Origin: a virus
Direction: 5' to 3' (one strand)
Virus record (IMG/VR): IMGVR_UViG_3300045825_000192
Coordinates: 1 to 23,755 of that record
Length of the DNA stretch: 23,755 nucleotides
The notes under the pieces are model-generated. The model was not told where the DNA came from. It saw only the letters and a list, made by a program, of their open reading frames with translations, and ran no database searches. How positions within the stretch are numbered: the stretch's first letter is position 1; every line of letters begins with the position of its first letter. Positions 7,496 through 15,519 of the stretch are shown here, piece after piece. A program made the translations under genes and the position numbers.

Positions 7496-8003
7496 GGACT
7501 ACTCCCAGGTTCATGAGGTACTGAGCCTGCCAGACGGCATCGGCCATAGCCATATGCTTGAGGGAGTCTGGCGGGGGTTTCTTAAACCCGTCGGGATCTA
7601 GCATCTTCACCACGGTCCGGTAGTCACGCTCCTGGCGAAAGGACCAAGGTGTCTTGCCCCCAAAGAGGTTCTTCAGGATGGCTAGATCGAACGTAGGGGA
7701 GTTAGCCCAGACCCCCTCAACGGCCTTGGCTCGGTCCTCCAAGATAGCCCATAGGTCGCTTACACTGATGAAGACGGAGTCCTGGGCCACTAGTACTGCT
7801 TCCTTGGCCTCGAGGCTTTGGTTAACCCACCACATAACCGTTGAGTAATCAATCCTACGATCGGATTGCTCTTCTCGATTCAAGTTGAAGTTAGCCATGA
7901 AGTGTATCTTCTGGCTGTCAAAGACACATACCCCAACCTGAAGGACCAGGGCGTCGGTCTCCAGACTAAGGGTTTCGATATCTACCATGAGCTGATTAGG
8001 CAT
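7488..8003 (-). CDS. DEDD-family 3'-5' exonuclease
   Basis: A 171-residue RNase H-like exonuclease. The catalytic pattern is Asp8-x-Glu10 (VDIETLS), Asp106 in NSPTFDLAIL, and His150 with Asp155 (HMAMADAVWQ), which is the DEDDh form. It is close to the phage exonuclease group that includes T4 DexA-like proteins. It could trim DNA or RNA 3' ends or supply proofreading beyond the polymerase's own exonuclease domain. The start has GAGGAAA before the ATG. The upstream homing-endonuclease gene ends 22 bases inside this reading frame, which suggests that the intruder arrived next to it and now shares the boundary. Confidence 0.85.
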   Translation of the reverse strand: MPNQLMVDIETLSLETDALVLQVGVCVFDSQKIHFMANFNLNREEQSDRRIDYSTVMWWVNQSLEAKEAVLVAQDSVFISVSDLWAILEDRAKAVEGVWANSPTFDLAILKNLFGGKTPWSFRQERDYRTVVKMLDPDGFKKPPPDSLKHMAMADAVWQAQYLMNLGVVHV

Positions 8004-8527
8004 ATCTTTCCTCGCTTTCCATTCTTGATATTAGTAACATAATTTCTAGATATTTGATAATCCTGTGCAATTTTCTTATGGGTTCTTTTATCCTCGCGAA
8101 TGGCCTTTAACTGTAGAAGGCTCAGGCCATTTCGAGACTGACCCATGGCCAGCCTAGACTCTAGAGTATGCGCCACCCCATACATTGCGTTTTTAGGACC
8201 AGACCTATTAAAGGACATTAGGTCCTTGGTGGCCTCGGTATGGGTCTTACCATACCAACAGCATTTTTCACCCGTCATACCCTGTTTGCCGGGGCCACCA
8301 TCTGAGATATTAATTAGAGACTTTCTAAAATGTTTTATTAGGTATTTCTCATGTTCCCAAGCCTCCTCCCTATTCTTCCAACTACTGACCACCTCTACAG
8401 AGAACCCTTCATGTGCAATCCTCTTCCACTCGGTTGACCTATGCCTTAAGTCCCAGGGACGCTTAATATTTCCATATCCGACATAGAAGACTCCCTTGTC
8501 ATTGATATGAAGATAAGTGTAATACAT
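7982..8527 (-). CDS. GIY-YIG homing endonuclease (free-standing)
   Basis: A 181-residue protein with the GIY-YIG core at residues 2-19 (YYTYLH and FYVGYG), basic residues at 27-30 and the conserved Glu near 60 (EHEKYLI), then NISDGG at 73-78. NUMOD3-like DNA-binding repeats follow (WYGKTHTEATK, and MYGVAHTLESR at about 115-125), with a C-terminal HTH (KKIAQDYQISRNYVTNI). Enzymes of this type cut an allele that lacks them and are copied in by repair. It sits between the polymerase and the exonuclease genes. Its base composition is visibly more A+T-rich than its neighbours, as expected for recent insertion. The start has AGGATTAGG upstream. Confidence 0.9.
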   Translation of the reverse strand: MYYTYLHINDKGVFYVGYGNIKRPWDLRHRSTEWKRIAHEGFSVEVVSSWKNREEAWEHEKYLIKHFRKSLINISDGGPGKQGMTGEKCCWYGKTHTEATKDLMSFNRSGPKNAMYGVAHTLESRLAMGQSRNGLSLLQLKAIREDKRTHKKIAQDYQISRNYVTNIKNGKRGKICLISSW

Positions 8528-8568: not shown

Positions 8569-10803
8569 TTACTTCCATGCCTTACTCACACCCCAATGTG
8601 TTCCATATTCCACATCGGCCACCAGGGGCACAGACATGTTGATCTTGAAGGTCTCTAGCAGCTTGGGCTTCTCCATGATGGCCTTGATCTGTGGAAGGTT
8701 CTTCTCCAGGGTATCAGAGCGAACCCACAGCAGGATTGAGTCGTGAACCTCCCCGCGGATACGAACCTCGTCCCAGGGGAGCGTCTGGTGGATCTCTACC
8801 ATAGACATGACCTTCAGGTCCCCTGACCCGAACCCCTGGACGGGGGAATTAATAGCCTGGCGCTCAGCCTCGGCCCTGATACCCTTCTCAGAGCTATTGA
8901 CCCCTGGCAAATGACGGATGCGCCCAGATGGGGAGCTAACTTGCCCGAAGGCCCTGGCTACTCGGCGTTGACGTTCGTGCCACTGGGGTAGGGCCGAGTA
9001 AGTCTCGAAGTATCGAACTCGGAAAGCCTGGGCGCTGGCCTCGGTCATCTCCACCCCATAGTTGTCCCGAGCATAGATCACTAGCTTGGGCCAGCCCATG
9101 CCGTACAAGAGCCCAAAGTTCACAGCTTTAGCCATCTTGCGCTCTTCCTTAGTTAGCTGACCTATGGGCTTCCCAAGTATCACTGAGGCCGTAGTACTGT
9201 GGATGTCCCCTCCAGTCTGGAAAATCATCTTCATGCGATGATCATTAGCCAGCAGAGCCGCTATCCGTAGCTCAATCTGGGAGAAGTCCGAGCAGACGAA
9301 GGTCCACCCATCAGGAGCCCCTATGAGGGAGCGTATCATCGGGTCTCGGGGAACCTGGTGCAGGCGGCTGGCCCAGCGTCCCGTGACAGTACCGTGCAGC
9401 TTAGTGGAGATATATAGCCTGTCCCCGTGCATGAGCTCTTGCCACCCGTTGATGTACGTGCTAAGGTTCTTGTCAATCCCACGAAACTCCATGAGAAGCT
9501 TGGGCAGCTCATGCTTGTGCTGGAGGCGGAGAAGTACGGATTCCCCTGTACTGGGAGAACCCCCTGCTGTGGTCTCCAGCACGGGCAGGTTTAGCTTATC
9601 GTAGAAGAGCTTACCCACCTGGGCGGGTGAATTCCAGTTGACCTCCTCCCCCGCCAGCTCAGACATCCTGGCCAGGGTAGTGTCCCGTCGGGTGGTGAGG
9701 TCCACACGGGCGGCCTCGAGTTTCTCTAAGTCAATGAAGTGCCCGTCCGTCTCTACCTCTTCCATCATGCGAGCAGAGGGCATCACCAGCCTGTAGAAGA
9801 GCCTCCGCTGTGTGGAATCCGCGATGAGCCTTCTGCGGAAGATGTAGTACAGCTGCCGAGTCCAATGAGTGTCCCAGCAGCCGTACTTGTAGAACTTCTC
9901 TAGGTCACCTAAGCCTAGTTTGGTCTTCAGGTCCACATCATAGCTGGGGGCATTGCAGAACTCAGAGGCTAGCTCCTTGAGCCCGTGTGGGCTATTCTCG
10001 TCCAGGAGGTGGTGGGCCAGCATGGTATCAAAGCCCAAATGGAAGCGAGCCCCATAGTGGCGGAAGATCCAGCGATTATCAAACTTGAAATTCTGCCCGA
10101 TGATGGTCTTTCCATCGGCTACCTCGAAGAGTATGCCCATGAAGCGCTGCTGCTCATCCGCATTCCAAGGGCTGTCCCTTACGCATAGAGGTAAGGCCCA
10201 GTTTTTATCAGTGGCACTTAGCGAGAACTGAATGGTGTTAATCGCGGCCCCTTCCTTCTCGGGGTCTAGGCCTGTGGTTTCTATATCGATGGCCACCTCT
10301 TCAGAGTCCCCGAACTCCTCGATGAAGGTATTCCACTGCTTCATAGTCCGGATGACCTCCCAGTGGAGCTCGGTCTCTTGTTCGTTAGTCCCGCCTAGTA
10401 GATGGCCAAACTTAGCGATGTCCTTACGAAGGCCAGGGAGCCTGGCGGGATCACGAAGGGCCACTGCAGGGGAGAAGGTGGGCAAACACTTGATGCTCTG
10501 GTAGTCGAACTGCTGGCCATGGAGCTCAGTGATCTTCGACTTCTTGTTGAGGGCCTTTAGTACGTTAGCACCTAGTGTGAGTATGTGAGTGGGGGCAAGC
10601 TCCTCGATCTCGGCATCCAGGGCTATTTTGCATTCCTTGACCTCCTTCGCACTGAGAGCTTCCTCAGAGGGAACTTTCGAGAGGCTAGTGAAGGTGTGGC
10701 CTGTAAGGCCTATGCCAGCCAGGAGGTCATCCAGGAGCTTCCTATTCCGACCCCGCGGAAACTCCTCAATGATGAGGATGCGTGGCTTACGCTTGGGAGC
10801 CAT
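8569..10803 (-). CDS. polA: Family A DNA polymerase with UDG-like N-terminal domain
   Basis: A 744-residue replicative polymerase. Residues 1-137 resemble a family 4/5 uracil-DNA-glycosylase fold (ILTLGANVLKAL and the CLPTFSPAVALRDP motif at 106-119), but without an obvious active centre, so it may be structural. The 3'-5' exonuclease shows Asp173/Glu175, Asp242 and Tyr307/Asp311. The polymerase has motif A DFSQIELRIAA (Asp506), the O-helix with Arg555, Lys559, Phe563 and Tyr567 in the E. coli Pol I spacing, and motif C His687-Asp688. Phe563 rather than Tyr predicts discrimination against dideoxynucleotides. There is no 5'-3' exonuclease domain. The start has GAGGT and overlaps the deaminase gene by 17 bases. 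It is the main phage replicase. Confidence 0.95.
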   Translation of the reverse strand: MAPKRKPRILIIEEFPRGRNRKLLDDLLAGIGLTGHTFTSLSKVPSEEALSAKEVKECKIALDAEIEELAPTHILTLGANVLKALNKKSKITELHGQQFDYQSIKCLPTFSPAVALRDPARLPGLRKDIAKFGHLLGGTNEQETELHWEVIRTMKQWNTFIEEFGDSEEVAIDIETTGLDPEKEGAAINTIQFSLSATDKNWALPLCVRDSPWNADEQQRFMGILFEVADGKTIIGQNFKFDNRWIFRHYGARFHLGFDTMLAHHLLDENSPHGLKELASEFCNAPSYDVDLKTKLGLGDLEKFYKYGCWDTHWTRQLYYIFRRRLIADSTQRRLFYRLVMPSARMMEEVETDGHFIDLEKLEAARVDLTTRRDTTLARMSELAGEEVNWNSPAQVGKLFYDKLNLPVLETTAGGSPSTGESVLLRLQHKHELPKLLMEFRGIDKNLSTYINGWQELMHGDRLYISTKLHGTVTGRWASRLHQVPRDPMIRSLIGAPDGWTFVCSDFSQIELRIAALLANDHRMKMIFQTGGDIHSTTASVILGKPIGQLTKEERKMAKAVNFGLLYGMGWPKLVIYARDNYGVEMTEASAQAFRVRYFETYSALPQWHERQRRVARAFGQVSSPSGRIRHLPGVNSSEKGIRAEAERQAINSPVQGFGSGDLKVMSMVEIHQTLPWDEVRIRGEVHDSILLWVRSDTLEKNLPQIKAIMEKPKLLETFKINMSVPLVADVEYGTHWGVSKAWK

Positions 10804-11215
10804 AATGAGATACCTCGATTCCTGCTTGCATCAGTAATTCTAGACCCTCTACCCTGCGGTAGGGAGTTGCGTACACCACCCGACAGATGCCGGCATTGAT
10901 GAGTAGCTTGGCGCAGTCTAAGCAAGGGCAAGCCGTCACATAGGCTGTGGCCTTATCCAGTGCTACCCCATGACGGGCGGCATGGGCTATGGCGCCAGCC
11001 TCGGCGTGCGTGGTATGGGTACAAGGGTTATGCTCGTTGCACGTCTCAGCGGAGCAATGCGGCAGCCCAGAGGGAGCCCCGTTGTAGCCCGTGGAGATGA
11101 CCCTCCCCTCTCGGGCCAAGACAGCCCCTACGGAGAGTCGATTGCAAGTAGATCGCTGGGAGACCACATGGGCGATGGTCATAAGCATTTCATCGCGTGA
11201 GATACGTTCAGTCAT
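10787..11215 (-). CDS. dCMP deaminase
   Basis: A 142-residue zinc enzyme that converts dCMP to dUMP. Zinc and proton-shuttle residues are His70-Ala-Glu72 (HAEAGAI) and the Pro-Cys98-x-x-Cys101 motif (ACPCLDC). The extra Cys/His cluster in the insert (AETCNEHNPCTH) is typical of phage and eukaryotic dCMP deaminases, which often bind a second zinc and are controlled by dCTP and dTTP. I moved the start to 11,215: it has GGGAG at good spacing and overlaps the ligase stop by 8 bases. An open start at 11,263 would add 16 residues and overlap by 56. It feeds the dUMP pool next to two thymidylate-synthase-fold genes. Confidence 0.92.
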   Translation of the reverse strand: MTERISRDEMLMTIAHVVSQRSTCNRLSVGAVLAREGRVISTGYNGAPSGLPHCSAETCNEHNPCTHTTHAEAGAIAHAARHGVALDKATAYVTACPCLDCAKLLINAGICRVVYATPYRRVEGLELLMQAGIEVSHYGSQA

Positions 11216-12071
11216 AGCGAACTCCCAGTAAGACGGGGAATCTAGGGGCATCCTTGCTGCCACTGGGGAAGTATTTAACCTTGACTGTGGCCCCGATAGG
11301 GGGTCTCTCCCAGAGAGCCGAGCGGAGAGCGTCGTCCATACCTGAGCCTACGCTGTATTCCACACCTGCGTAAGGGCCCGTGAGGCCCCGAACTCGGAGG
11401 CTGCCCAGTGTCCCCTTGCCTACCATTCCGGCCTTGTGGTTACTACGCTCGGCCCGACCCAAGGCGTCTCGCGTGAGTTCGTTGGTGTTTTGCATTTGCT
11501 CTTCCACTGCGATCACAACCGCCTCGTCATCAGCAAAGCGCTTAAGCTTAAGGAGGGTTCCCTCTCGAAGGGTAGAGCGACCGTGCTTGTAAGGCCCCTG
11601 TGGGTCACGTAACATCACGCCCTCGAAGCCATCCCCCAGGCAGCGTTCCTCGAAAGACTGGAGCTGGCCCATGTCACTGACCATCGTATGCTCTACGGGG
11701 TAAACCTGACCCCAGGCTCGGGGTGAGACCGCCTCGATACGTCGGTGGAAGGGAAGCTCCAGTAAGAAATCATCAAAGACGTGAAAGCCTATTCCTATAG
11801 GGTTCCCGTCTCGGGACATGACCGCCGAGGTGGTCTTACGGAAGGCCTCCGGGTGGCAAGGGTCTCCACAGATGAGTTCCCCGTCCATCCCGTTGAACTC
11901 GGGTTTCCCGAAGAGCTCTTGAACGAAGGTGTTAGGGATTGGCTTGAGGTTCCTGGACAGTAGGACACCGTCGATGACTACGGCTCTTATTCCATCCAGC
12001 TTGGGGCTGGCGAGGAGTGGGTAACGGAGGAGACTGATGTCGTCGATTGTGGCGGCTAAGAGGGGTTTCAT
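11208..12071 (-). CDS. ATP-dependent DNA ligase
   Basis: A 287-residue short ligase. The adenylation motif is SPKLDGIR with Lys24, followed by DGEL (63-66), FHVFD (96-100), FEGVMLRDP (149-157) and LLKLKR (173-178). These match nucleotidyl-transferase motifs I, III, IIIa, IV and V in order. A C-terminal OB-fold of about 85 residues ends in KYFPSG and FPVLLGVR. This size is typical of phage ligases without an N-terminal DNA-binding domain. It seals Okazaki fragments and repair nicks left by the polymerase and the DenV-like glycosylase. Its ATG overlaps the upstream stop in an ATGA junction, with AAGG as ribosome site. Confidence 0.93.
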   Translation of the reverse strand: MKPLLAATIDDISLLRYPLLASPKLDGIRAVVIDGVLLSRNLKPIPNTFVQELFGKPEFNGMDGELICGDPCHPEAFRKTTSAVMSRDGNPIGIGFHVFDDFLLELPFHRRIEAVSPRAWGQVYPVEHTMVSDMGQLQSFEERCLGDGFEGVMLRDPQGPYKHGRSTLREGTLLKLKRFADDEAVVIAVEEQMQNTNELTRDALGRAERSNHKAGMVGKGTLGSLRVRGLTGPYAGVEYSVGSGMDDALRSALWERPPIGATVKVKYFPSGSKDAPRFPVLLGVRYD

Positions 12072-12880
12072 GCTAGGGCCTTCAGTTGATGGTAGTTACC
12101 TCTGAAGAGGTGTAGACTGGTGATATTAGTGGTAAGGGTGCCAGGTCTAACTTCATACCAATCATCACTCTTGGCCCGGCACTCATCCAGAAACCATAGG
12201 AGGAGTCGAACGGCCATGTAAAGGTCATTACGGAGATGATTGATTAGATCAACACTTCTTAGGGTGTAAACCATGTGGAGTTTATTGTCCCGCATTATGA
12301 GTTGCCAGCTAAGAGAACATGGAACTCGTCCTTTATGAACGGCTCCGGTATCTTCAGGAAAGAACATGGGAACTACCGCCTGTCTGGTATCAGGCTCTCT
12401 GACCAGCTGATCTACCACATCTCGGAGGTCTCCATACTCATAAAGGATTCCCCGATGAGGTTGGTTGAGAGGAGTCCAAGACTCGGGAACCACGGAGGCG
12501 GGTGGAACCCTTCCGGCATACTTAGGCCAAAGCCTAGACATATAGTTATGTTGGAAAGTTCCATCGGGCATACGGAAGTCCTTAGCACCCTCCCCCATAC
12601 GCCAGTTGGCCCATTCTGTCCCAGGGTTTAGTGGATACCCACAGACCCGTTCCTCGAAATGGTTATCGGACCAGGGGATATCTGGACCTATGTCTTTTCG
12701 GTAGTGAGCTAAGAGCTCGGTAGGAAGCAATACGACTGAGTGGTGGTTTAATACTTCATAAGTCTCCAGGTCAGGTTTCCCCTCCACAGAGGTCCCCTGC
12801 CAACGACGGGGCTTTATTACGGGAGCGGATAAGAATTCCTGATGAAGGGACCTTTTCAACTCGGTGAATGATTGGTACAT
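12068..12880 (-). CDS. Thymidylate-synthase-fold enzyme, possibly dCMP hydroxymethylase-like
   Basis: A 270-residue member of the ThyA superfamily. The catalytic Cys188 lies in GRVPCSLSWQL, with Arg166 upstream (RQAVV). The phosphate-binding Arg208-Ser209 lies in TLRSVDLINHL, exactly 20 residues after the Cys as in E. coli ThyA (146 to 166). At +31, where ThyA has the dUMP-selecting Asn177, this protein has Asp219. T4 dCMP hydroxymethylase also has Asp there. A C-terminal SLHLFRGNY resembles the ThyA THLYSNH motif. The residues therefore favour dCMP over dUMP, although the neighbouring Asn218 leaves some alignment doubt. It is followed by ligase and deaminase genes. Its ribosome site (GGAAC) lies in the tail of the homing-endonuclease gene. 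Confidence 0.8.
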   Translation of the reverse strand: MYQSFTELKRSLHQEFLSAPVIKPRRWQGTSVEGKPDLETYEVLNHHSVVLLPTELLAHYRKDIGPDIPWSDNHFEERVCGYPLNPGTEWANWRMGEGAKDFRMPDGTFQHNYMSRLWPKYAGRVPPASVVPESWTPLNQPHRGILYEYGDLRDVVDQLVREPDTRQAVVPMFFPEDTGAVHKGRVPCSLSWQLIMRDNKLHMVYTLRSVDLINHLRNDLYMAVRLLLWFLDECRAKSDDWYEVRPGTLTTNITSLHLFRGNYHQLKALA

Positions 12881-12881
12881 A

Positions 12882-13547
12882 TTAGTTCCAAAGGTAAGGA
12901 CGTGCTTTATGAGCCCTTATAAGTTTTACCAAACCCCTCGAACAGCCATACCTAGTGGCTAGAGACCGAAGAGGTTCCCCACGTTGACATTCAATTTCCA
13001 TTATTTGTTCATCAGTAAACCTTCTATTAGGGCTGGGCTTTCCCCACATCGCATTACTAGGCCCAGAGTTGAGACCAGGGTGTTTTCTCCCGTAGTTGGG
13101 GTTCTTGGCCCCGCTATTGTTTATTTTGGCAGTATGTTCTGTGGGCAACTTCTTACCCCTGCGATGGCTAGGCCTTCCTTTAAGGTGTTTAGAAATAGCT
13201 TCCCTATGCTCAAGAGATAAGGCTTTCCCCTTATGAACTTCGCTAACCCTAAATTTTTGTTCGGGGGTTAGCTTCCTTCCTGCAGGCCCCTGCCCACCGT
13301 CGGTGATATTGACCAGGGGGTAACCACCCTGCCTTAACTGATGAATCAATCGAACTTCCTCAGCTAGAGCTTGCTCATCGGAGCCATAGGTAGAGTGAAT
13401 GTGCACGGACCTCCCATATAGTTCAACTATCCGAGTCCAGTGAGGGCTCCTACCCCTCCGGGTCTCCCAAGCTCGTTTCTTCTGACCCTTACCGACATAG
13501 AAAATCTCGCCAGTGTCAAGCCTAAGGTGGATATAAACATAGAACAT
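12882..13547 (-). CDS. GIY-YIG homing endonuclease (free-standing)
   Basis: A 221-residue protein starting MFYVYIHLRLDTGE, with FYVGKG at 16-21, Arg25, Glu64 and NITDGG at 80-85. This is the GIY-YIG order seen in phage Seg-like nucleases. NUMOD-type repeats occupy about 90-170 (LSLEHREAISKHL, KNPNYGRKHPG, SNAMWGKPSP) and a C-terminal HTH covers about 177-213. I chose the start at 13,547, with AAGG eight bases upstream and the family's usual beginning. The frame is open to 13,646 and would add 33 unlike residues, including the upstream junction. It sits between the two thymidylate-synthase-fold genes, probably as an invader targeting one of them. Confidence 0.88.
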   Translation of the reverse strand: MFYVYIHLRLDTGEIFYVGKGQKKRAWETRRGRSPHWTRIVELYGRSVHIHSTYGSDEQALAEEVRLIHQLRQGGYPLVNITDGGQGPAGRKLTPEQKFRVSEVHKGKALSLEHREAISKHLKGRPSHRRGKKLPTEHTAKINNSGAKNPNYGRKHPGLNSGPSNAMWGKPSPNRRFTDEQIMEIECQRGEPLRSLATRYGCSRGLVKLIRAHKARPYLWN

Positions 13548-13635
13548 AGTGCGCCTTATCCGTGGGCTATCAAAAGAAGTGGGGAAGAGGTTGATAAGAC
13601 ATCTTGTCAGGCTGCAGGCCCTATCCCCATAGGCA

Positions 13636-14406
13636 TTATAGCTCATCGGGTTCTGGCTCGTCCACTACCTCACCCGTGAGCCCCGCCAGAAGGGCCACCA
13701 CCGGAAGCATCTTCTTGCTAGTGACCCCCACGTGATCCCACCCGAATTGCCACATCTTGACCCTAGTGCGATATGCGTACACACACTCTGGGTTGAAGTT
13801 TCTTCGGGTAGAAAGACCAAAGGTTCTAAAGAACTTGGGGTCTCCGCTCCTGATGGCCCTTAGCGTTCCCAGCGGTGTGGGGTCATACCTCATCAGGATA
13901 GGAGCAAATACGGCAGAGAGATAGGTATTCGCGAAATAGAACTTAATATGGGTAGGCTTTCTATCGGGAAAATATGCAGGTAACTTCTGAGAGAAGAAGA
14001 TTAGGTCGGCCAAAAATTTTTGGATTAACTCGGTTGACCTATACAGTATTGTGACTTGAAGGTGGTGTGGTGTTTGGGTGATAACCATGTTCTGTAGGCA
14101 CCTACCTTGAGACCTTGAGTCCTTGATCCCATTCTTTAGTTGAACTGCCACACTGCTGTGGGGTTTCGAGGTCCGTGATGCCAGCTTAGCAAAGGCGGCC
14201 TCTATGTCTTGAACTGGCCAGTAGATCCGCTCGAGTTGTCGACCCTTGGACTTTGTATAACCAATATCGGTATAGTCCAAGGGGCAGCTGACTAGCTCGT
14301 CCCAAGTGAGCTCGAAGTGCTGATCGAATACTATCTTGCGAACCCCCGTGACCATGCCTTTAGCGCAGGCCACCTGACGGATGAACTCAAGCCACTTCGT
14401 TATCAT
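13636..14406 (-). CDS. Second thymidylate-synthase-fold protein, divergent
   Basis: A 256-residue protein. Overall similarity is low, but the core follows ThyA spacing: Cys103 in QGRCLQNMVI, Arg123-Ser124 in LYRSTELIQKF (+20) and Asp134 at the +31 position (FLADL), as in the gene encoded downstream and in T4 dCMP hydroxymethylase. A later segment, KFYFANTYLSAVF (about 155-167), could be the counterpart of the ThyA HLYSN region. The first 90 residues are unlike E. coli ThyA. It might be a partner, a second hydroxymethylase with another substrate, or a subunit of a heteromer. The C terminus is acidic (EVVDEPEPDEL). The start has AAAGGA. The fold assignment is moderate; the reaction is an inference. 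Confidence 0.62.
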   Translation of the reverse strand: MITKWLEFIRQVACAKGMVTGVRKIVFDQHFELTWDELVSCPLDYTDIGYTKSKGRQLERIYWPVQDIEAAFAKLASRTSKPHSSVAVQLKNGIKDSRSQGRCLQNMVITQTPHHLQVTILYRSTELIQKFLADLIFFSQKLPAYFPDRKPTHIKFYFANTYLSAVFAPILMRYDPTPLGTLRAIRSGDPKFFRTFGLSTRRNFNPECVYAYRTRVKMWQFGWDHVGVTSKKMLPVVALLAGLTGEVVDEPEPDEL

Positions 14407-14572
14407 GCTCGTCCTTTAGGGTTAATGTGTGATTCTGGTAGGTCCCCGTGAAGACCCGAGAGCGACCGTCCAGAAGTTTGGCCAACTCAGGGGTGAGGGG
14501 GACTTCTCCCACGGGCTTGCCCTTCTGGGAGATGAGTACGGTCTCCCCATGCACCGTGAGCCTAACCCTCAT
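14387..14572 (-). CDS. Small hypothetical protein
   Basis: A 61-residue protein that looks all-beta at the N terminus (RVRLTVHGETVLISQKGKPV) with a short acidic C-terminal strand. I recognise no family. It has a good CTGGAG ribosome site and overlaps both neighbours (MazG-like by 11 bases, ThyA-like by 20), which supports it as a real operon gene. It could be an accessory subunit of either enzyme. A DNA or nucleotide role is suggested only by position. Confidence 0.65.
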   Translation of the reverse strand: MRVRLTVHGETVLISQKGKPVGEVPLTPELAKLLDGRSRVFTGTYQNHTLTLKDEHDNEVA

Positions 14573-15011
14573 TGCGGCGCTCCAGGGCCAGAGCGGCTAT
14601 CGCGGCTGTGGCATCGAAGGTCGGGTAAGGTCGGGGTAGGAGGGTGCTGTGGTCTGGGCCTACCCAGCCTGGGGGCTTGACCACATCCAGGGGACTACCG
14701 CGCTTGCTGTCAGAGCCGTCCGGTTTGGCCAACCGTTTAGTCATGTTCGCCTCTTGCACCCGATTCCACAGAGGCTGCCAGGGGAGTCCCATCATGTGGG
14801 CGGTTCCCATCGCGATGTAGACCAGGTCTATGAGCGCGTCAGCCATGCCTTCCAGGTCATCGCGCGCGGCAGAGTCCTCGAACTCTGAGAGTTCTTCATG
14901 CAGGAAGTTCCTGCGAAATTTGTAGGCCTCCCAATCTAGAAGGCTTGGCTCGGTGGCCATCGGGACACAAAACTTGTTGTGGAAGGCCAGCACGTCATCA
15001 GAGTTTGTCAT
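14562..15011 (-). CDS. MazG-like dNTP pyrophosphohydrolase
   Basis: A 149-residue all-alpha NTP pyrophosphatase. The metal-binding pattern is Glu39/Glu40-x-x-Glu43 (HEELSEFE) and Asp58-x-x-x-Asp62 (MADALIDLVY), followed by the conserved VQEANMTK. A Lys/Pro-rich tail (RGSPLDVVKPPGW) is usual in phage members annotated as MazG or phosphoribosyl-ATP-pyrophosphatase-like. It would hydrolyse a dNTP to dNMP and pyrophosphate. In this cluster a dCTPase- or dUTPase-like job, supplying dCMP to the deaminase or the ThyA-like enzymes, is the natural reading but is inferred. It overlaps the kinase gene by 14 bases. Confidence 0.85.
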   Translation of the reverse strand: MTNSDDVLAFHNKFCVPMATEPSLLDWEAYKFRRNFLHEELSEFEDSAARDDLEGMADALIDLVYIAMGTAHMMGLPWQPLWNRVQEANMTKRLAKPDGSDSKRGSPLDVVKPPGWVGPDHSTLLPRPYPTFDATAAIAALALERRNEG

Positions 15012-15519
15012 GGGGTTTCTCTAGGTGGTTGATAACTTGATTCATGATCCAGCTGTACTCGTAGGTCTCGTAGTCCCAGTGGGCCACAGTGAAGCCTGTG
15101 AGGGCCAGCTGGTCTAGAGTGAGGTCGTAGGCCCCTAAGAGCTGCTTAGAACGTTGGATGACTCCGTCCATCTGGGGGCGGTCCCCAAAGTCAAAGATGG
15201 CTTCATCACTCGGGCGGCAGTAGATGATGAGGGGTTCCTCAGCCAGGAGGAAGCTGTATTCCTCAGCTAGCTCGGCATCCGAGTAGATATAAGAGCCCCG
15301 GCAGATCGGCCCGTAGATGGGCTCGCTGATGGTACACAGCCGGTCTAGGATGAGGGGAAGGTTCTTAGACATCTCAGCTGCCTTCCGAAGGTAGAGCTTA
15401 CCCTCGGAGGATGTGGATGGCCTTCTTCGGTTGTTCATCACCAGCAGCTTGAGGTCCTCTGATAAGCGGGCAACCAGTGTGGTCTTCCCTGAGTTATCCA
15501 TACCCTCGACGATGATCAT
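14998..15519 (-). CDS. Deoxynucleoside monophosphate kinase (thymidylate-kinase-like P-loop protein)
   Basis: A 173-residue P-loop kinase with Walker A GMDNSGKTT at 6-14, preceded by IIVE as in thymidylate kinases. DRLCTISEPIYG (about 59-70) corresponds to the DR-x-xxS-x-xxY substrate loop, and IIYCRPSDE is the base- and lid-side strand. It would phosphorylate dTMP or a modified dNMP to the diphosphate. It is the first gene of the leftward operon, 28 bases after the -10 of the candidate promoter in the divergent region, with the leader TTAACCAAGGAGAAAACT before its ATG. The exact nucleotide specificity cannot be read from sequence. Confidence 0.83.
   Translation of the reverse strand: MIIVEGMDNSGKTTLVARLSEDLKLLVMNNRRRPSTSSEGKLYLRKAAEMSKNLPLILDRLCTISEPIYGPICRGSYIYSDAELAEEYSFLLAEEPLIIYCRPSDEAIFDFGDRPQMDGVIQRSKQLLGAYDLTLDQLALTGFTVAHWDYETYEYSWIMNQVINHLEKPHDKL

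Follow-up and report, generated by a model that had tools for sequence, protein, structure and literature searches.

A 23,755-base contig from IMG/VR (virus record IMGVR_UViG_3300045825_000192; hereafter the window), which represents a fragment of a phage genome, was found to carry two neighbouring genes on the minus strand, designated P1 (positions 12068-12880, encoding 270 amino acids) and P2 (positions 13636-14406, encoding 256 amino acids), whose products probably make an altered cytosine for the virus DNA together. The predicted folds place both in the thymidylate synthase (TS) superfamily, and on balance we favour the view that they form a two-protein phage module which modifies cytosine nucleotides ahead of replication. 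Judged from its sequence, P1 is most likely a folate-dependent enzyme modifying deoxycytidine monophosphate (dCMP), with a hydroxymethylase favoured and a hydroxylase or a methylase as live rivals. The new part is P2, a member of a TS-fold family which has no Pfam model, is listed with unknown function in PHROGs, is tied to P1 and is exchangeable with a methyltransferase-like module.

Relatives of both proteins were collected from named phages and from IMG/VR, and 70 P1 and 58 P2 sequences were aligned. The initial annotation had described two TS-fold enzymes with a catalytic Cys, an Arg and an Asp at +0, +20 and +31; the coordinates, the strand and this spacing are present in the translations of both genes, as C188/R208/D219 in P1 and C103/R123/D134 in P2. 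In P1, residues C188, R208, D211, D219 and H257 were invariant in all 70 relatives, D211 being equivalent to the folate-site Asp169 of TS and D219 falling at the Asn177-to-Asp position, and R166/Q167 were also retained throughout (70/70). P1 therefore carries the pair of residues expected of an enzyme of the T4 gp42 type (Asp177 with Asp169), and the Asn177 of canonical ThyA was replaced by Asp in every P1 (70/70) and every P2 (58/58) relative. The P2 family is far more divergent (11-50% identity to P2), and Y62, C103, R123 and D134 were its only invariant columns; that these four frozen positions include the three named beforehand argues strongly that they make up an active site. From a reading of the sequences, the distance between Tyr62 of P2 and the next strand equals that of the Tyr94-equivalent in the RB69 enzyme. 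The 169-equivalent of P2 is Glu in 53 of the 58 relatives, so P2 departs from the gp42 pattern at this position.

P1 barely passes the cut-off of the Pfam Thymidylat_synt model (PF00303, 24.9 bits against 24.3), matches phrog_160 (6e-27) and is labelled as a thymidylate synthase in most database records. P2 matched no Pfam model, nor was there a recurring Pfam match among its relatives. Its family corresponds in PHROGs to phrog_34294 (46/58 members) and phrog_13667 (6/58), both listed as unknown function, and neither entry records a TS fold. Orthologues of P2 in MW202455 and in Yersinia phage P744 already carry the name 'pyrimidine hmase synthase', which is a label in two records, given without an analysis of the P1/P2 pair.

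Structures of both proteins were predicted confidently with AlphaFold (AF2), with predicted local distance difference test (pLDDT) values of 94.0 for P1 and 94.5 for P2. The P1 model adopts the full TS fold (VIA Z 19.4-20.1 over 212-232 residues, root mean square deviation 2.4-3.1), with TS, MilA, T4 gp42 and the HY126 dCMP hydroxylase 9iqc tied as matches within that range of Z. P2 was matched by VIA to MilA (Z 13.8, 163 aligned residues, 3.4 Å), to 9iqu (Z 13.6) and to TS (Z 11.3-12.2), and among the matches listed for P2 all 50 were members of the TS superfamily. The P2 match spans approximately residues 1-177, and the C-terminal helices (about 178-245, in a protein extending to 256) are mostly uncovered. 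Foldseek also placed both models on the TS fold (probability 1.00 for P2), and the best viral match to P2 was the independently predicted BFVD model of the P2 of PMBT14 (TM 0.87), so that the TS-fold assignment made in the initial annotation is borne out by the predicted models. In both models the Cys opens a strand, the Arg lies near the end of the next strand and the Asp is located three to four residues into the following helix; Cys146, Arg166 and Asn177 of E. coli TS sit in the same strand/strand/helix register. The models thus place D134 of P2 and D219 of P1 at the Asn177/Asp switch position, as had been proposed, and by modelled fold both proteins are TS-superfamily members with the catalytic Cys and the phosphate-binding Arg in 70/70 and 58/58 relatives. 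A profile-profile comparison of P2 with P1 using hhalign gave nothing (probability 0.2%), and the kinship of the two consequently rests on structure and conserved residues. The P2 profile likewise gave no credible match among PDB sequences (best 4a0x, E 0.067).

The occurrence of two divergent copies in one operon had been regarded as unusual; the pair proved instead to be the rule in the P1 clade. P2 was present on the same strand in 128 of 140 P1 loci, a partly redundant set, and for 91 of 101 after collapsing to distinct P1 proteins. P2 usually lies just upstream of P1, and among the 91 distinct pairs the two genes overlap by 1-17 nt in 42, by exactly 4 nt in 35, and lie within 800 nt of each other in 84. 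When the scan was led by P2, the sole locus without P1 was one where the contig ends. P2 was nearly absent from 84,980 cellular genomes, where it was found on two contigs of metagenome-assembled genomes only. The pair occurs in phages of Pseudomonas, Serratia, Yersinia, Brevundimonas and Desulfofustis and, as detected with iterated profiles, also in Gordonia, Microbacterium and Mycobacterium phages, including Muddy (gp47 as P2 and gp46 as P1). Matches to the surrounding replication cassette were frequent in the 128 loci with both genes (dCMP deaminase in 123, PolA in 124, a TMP-kinase-like gene in 96 and MazG in 91). The MazG, dCMP deaminase and kinase neighbours noted in the initial annotation are thus real by Pfam and PHROG matches and conserved in relatives; the MazG-type, dNMP-kinase-type and P1 genes are adjacent, and their families are those of a cytosine-replacement pathway, with the substrates presumed. 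Of the cytosine-modification reading first given to this locus, the fold, the Asp and the neighbours have stood, and the supposed rarity of the pair has not.

In the mechanism which we propose, the MazG-type enzyme would convert dCTP to dCMP, and P1, with methylene-tetrahydrofolate, would transfer a one-carbon unit onto C5 of dCMP. The product would most likely be 5-hydroxymethyl-dCMP, because P1 keeps the folate-site Asp and is missing the TS segment for hydride transfer. P2 would join P1 in handling this line of cytosine substrates, either as a partner subunit or as the enzyme of the next step, after which the kinase would lift the modified nucleotide towards the triphosphate for PolA; the purpose may be to shield the phage DNA against host nucleases. 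In TS, a preference for cytosine over uracil is set by Asp at position 177 (Liu and Santi; Hardy and Nalivaika; Graves et al., as these are cited in PMC8670742). In the MetaGPA study (PMC8670742), TS, PRA-PH, dCMP deaminase and DNA-ligase domains were linked to phage contigs in which cytosine is fully modified, and Asp177 marked the modified TS class. These are the families found around P1 and P2, a likeness at the level of Pfam families in which P1 is barely above the cut-off.

Three known systems were compared with the pair. T4 gp42, a dCMP hydroxymethylase (1b49, 6a9b), resembles P1 in the TS fold, the Cys, the Arg, the folate-site Asp, Asp177 and the RND context, and a dCMP deaminase and a dCTP pyrophosphatase are likewise known from T4. 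P1 differs from gp42 in sequence (E only 1.4e-7 for the P1 profile), in having no C-terminal tail and in a His-x-Phe where gp42 has His-x-Tyr. It is also coupled to P2, a partner not known from T4. The dCMP 5-hydroxylase AfhB of HY126/RB69 (9iqc, 9iqu; RB69ORF048c) was the best PDB sequence match of P1 and ranked second among the fold matches of P2; a short C-terminus and Asp177 are common to AfhB and P1, and the Tyr-to-strand spacing to AfhB and P2, but AfhB has Asn at the folate-site Asp and is found in T4-like genomes. MilA, a CMP hydroxymethylase (5b6d, 5b6e, 5jnh) and the top fold match of P2, has the TS fold, a cytosine substrate and Asp177, but acts on a ribonucleotide and originates from an antibiotic gene cluster. 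More likely than not, P1 and P2 represent a new, two-component form of the TS-type systems already known to modify cytosine.

Several observations weigh against this reading. Eight P1 loci which are not cut right at P1 lack P2 on the entire contig (these contigs are possibly incomplete), so that P1 is apparently not always in need of P2. P2 is without the Arg pair which a TS subunit contributes to its neighbour, having S84/S85 there and mostly Gly, Thr or Ser across its relatives, and its His207/Tyr209 region is unconserved; the substrate of P2 may for these reasons differ from dCMP. The literature searched yielded no enzyme assay for any member of either family, and searches for Serbin, PMBT14, Muddy and Strzyga gave no nucleoside analysis of the DNA of a phage with both genes. 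Moreover, among PDB sequences the P1 profile scored best against 9iqu (9.9e-12), a dCMP hydroxylase dependent on flavin adenine dinucleotide (FAD), with a TS N229D mutant at 3.8e-10, and P1 shares a short C-terminus and the His-x-Phe with that hydroxylase. Hydroxylation in place of hydroxymethylation is therefore possible: P1 would be a flavin-dependent dCMP 5-hydroxylase like that of RB69/HY126 with 5-hydroxy-dCMP as product, and P2 a partner or further modifier. The matched entries 9iqu/9iqc are described as 'phage HY126 dCMP hydroxylase-AfhB' and 'monooxygenase dependent on riboflavin with dCMP and FAD', and in Mosigvirus 5-hydroxy-dCMP is made by a TS-superfamily enzyme, 5-hydroxy-dCMP synthase (PMC13390438). 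We nevertheless consider this unlikely. The folate-site Asp169 is kept in TS, T4 gp42, MilA and all 70 P1 relatives (as D211) and is Asn in the RB69 enzyme (98.7% identical to that of HY126), which favours a folate cofactor if, as we infer, this Asn is diagnostic; the fold comparison ties the hydroxylase with TS, MilA and gp42; and the annotated neighbourhoods of relatives revealed neither glycosyl- nor sugar-activation genes, although glycosyltransferase families were not searched.

The retained folate-site Asp would equally suit an XP12-like dCMP methylase with 5-methylcytosine as product, and the Asn-to-Asp switch in TS alone yields a dCMP methylase (Liu and Santi 1992, as cited in PMC8670742). 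P1, however, terminates at about TS residue 220 in the VIA alignment and is without the C-terminal segment of canonical TS. In TS this segment closes the site and is needed for hydride transfer (C-terminally deleted TS, e.g. PDB 1tda), so that a hydroxymethyl product would be favoured over a methyl one and a methylase is rather improbable. The label carried by most P1 records corresponds to a divergent thymidylate synthase making dTMP, with P2 as a degenerate copy. This is very improbable, as position 177 is Asp and not Asn in 70/70 P1 relatives, a separate ThyX is present in three relatives and a canonical Asn-type TS in one, and the catalytic positions of P2 are the only invariant ones of its family, which is the opposite of decay. 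In those relatives dTMP can accordingly be supplied without the pair, and an ordinary ThyA was ruled out for P1 by Asp177 together with these genes.

Five of the eight P1 loci without P2 have a C5-methyltransferase-like gene (PF00145), four of which also match an Asn-synthetase-like family in the locus scan, and P1 keeps all of its catalytic residues in the P2-less contigs (at least five with the C5-methyltransferase-like gene and three others). Neither gene was detected in any of the 128 loci with both P1 and P2. In a scan led by the methyltransferase, which shares three contigs with the P1-led scan, the 16 loci contained a P1-like gene in 13 cases, an Asn-synthetase-like gene in 15 and P2 in none; 12 of the 13 P1-like genes were checked and all had the Cys, the Arg, Asp169 and Asp177. 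On the P1 tree, the methyltransferase state requires two changes on supported branches. At least two lineages thus have a C5-methyltransferase-like plus asparagine-synthetase-like module in place of P2, and P1 has two alternative partners. This finding, a correlation only, speaks against a strict need for P2 in P1 catalysis throughout the family and may point to a role of P2 in a later or modifying step.

What P2 contributes may be viewed in two ways. It could be an independent second enzyme which acts after P1, on 5-hydroxymethyl-dCMP or on 5-hydroxymethylcytosine in DNA, and does the work of the C5-methyltransferase-like and Asn-synthetase-like module. C5-methyltransferases and TS alike activate C5 by attack of a Cys at C6, P2 has a full set of catalytic residues, and the two partners are mutually exclusive (0/128 in one direction; 13/16 with a P1-like gene and 0/16 with P2 in the other), having been exchanged at least twice; but the exclusion is a correlation and the two modules may yield different products, and we regard this role as a substantial possibility, though short of probable. 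Alternatively, P1 and P2 could be obligate partners in a hetero-oligomer whose active sites are composite, with R166 of P1 serving the P2 site across the TS dimer interface. The 4-nt overlaps in 35 of 91 distinct pairs, the co-occurrence in 91/101, the lack in P2 of the neighbour-lent Arg pair with R166/Q167 kept in 70/70 P1 relatives, and the failure to observe P2 without P1 all agree with such a complex. It is a reasonable possibility, but one we would not expect, as P1 stands without P2 and with intact catalytic residues on the contigs described above, and no fusion of P1 with P2 was seen. A more speculative, and on present evidence doubtful, extension is that P2 founds a new TS-fold branch carrying out an undescribed second step on P1-modified cytosine (or forming a heteromeric TS), and that its replacement, more than once, by the C5-methyltransferase-like and Asn-synthetase-like pair represents two hypermodification routes built on the same first enzyme.

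A phage protein family that lacks a Pfam model and is of unknown function in PHROGs thereby acquires a TS fold and a role open to testing, and it is linked to one particular partner in phages of both proteobacteria and actinobacteria, mycobacteriophage Muddy among them. Modified cytosine is predicted in the virions of all phages with P1 and P2. If the reading is true, a two-component cytosine-modifying system joins the known TS-type routes (to 5-methylcytosine, 5-hydroxymethylcytosine and 5-hydroxycytosine), and it may help to explain why Asp177 TS homologues are found together with MazG and dCMP deaminase on the contigs of modified phages.

Some further features were recorded in the relatives. 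The replacement module was found at loci L117, L122, L124, L125 and L140 and at L147-L162, and most of its C5-methyltransferase-like proteins have PECG instead of the usual PPCQ. In the protein at L117:2895-5057 an intein-like insert (Intein_splicing and DUF559/MTES_1575 nuclease matches) starts at the Cys of an HPEC motif, which suggests that this Cys is catalytic. An N6_N4_Mtase family protein is encoded between the C5-methyltransferase-like gene and P1 at L125:5114-5983, with a similar one in L117. A second P2-like open reading frame (ORF) lies beside an existing P2 and P1 pair and ThyX at L016:8572-9315, on the same contig as L107. A carbamoyltransferase (PF02543) was found in none of 14 whole records searched.

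In the window, P2 and P1 are separated by a GIY-YIG/NUMOD3 homing endonuclease gene (listed as 12882-13646, minus strand; NUMOD3 0.0012; phrog_314, homing endonuclease, 3.8e-17). Its likely start is an internal ATG at 13547 (MFYVYIH...), 88 nt past the P2 stop, and a single base separates its own stop codon from the ATG of P1. Neither the P2 nor the P1 reading frame is interrupted, and it looks like a free-standing homing endonuclease gene and not like an intron. The possibility that the pair is a single gene split by a mobile element was ruled out, as endonuclease-free relatives have two full-length, often overlapping genes. The P2 stop overlaps an ATG (TAATG, 13630-13640) with a reading frame of just a few codons; it may be what is left of an earlier overlapping start which the endonuclease insertion displaced.

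The minus strand of the window carries the replication genes, and the plus strand apparent primase/helicase and packaging-type genes. The minus-strand order, 5' to 3', begins with a TMP-kinase-like (d)NMP kinase (14998-15519; phrog_761, 2.3e-17), a neighbour kept in relatives and a candidate kinase of modified dCMP, followed by a MazG/PRA-PH-type nucleotide pyrophosphohydrolase (14562-15011; PF01503, 5e-14; phrog_671, 6.7e-24), a candidate supplier of dCMP from dCTP whose best PDB match was 3nl9, a putative nucleoside triphosphate pyrophosphohydrolase (3.1e-10). A 61-amino-acid ORF (14387-14572) precedes P2, the endonuclease gene and P1. Immediately downstream of P1 is an ATP-dependent DNA ligase (11208-12071; PF14743, 1.4e-12; PF01068, 5.6e-9; phrog_114, 1e-58), then a dCMP deaminase for the supply of dUMP (10787-11263; PF00383, 2.5e-22; phrog_174, 1.3e-55) and the family A DNA polymerase PolA (8569-10803; PF00476, 9.6e-80), whose N-terminal region is uracil-DNA-glycosylase-like (PF03167, 1.8e-6). 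The PolA of locus L068 resembles that of the window in this N-terminus, with Cys residues. A second GIY-YIG/NUMOD3 homing-endonuclease-like ORF is located immediately downstream of PolA, at 7982-8527.

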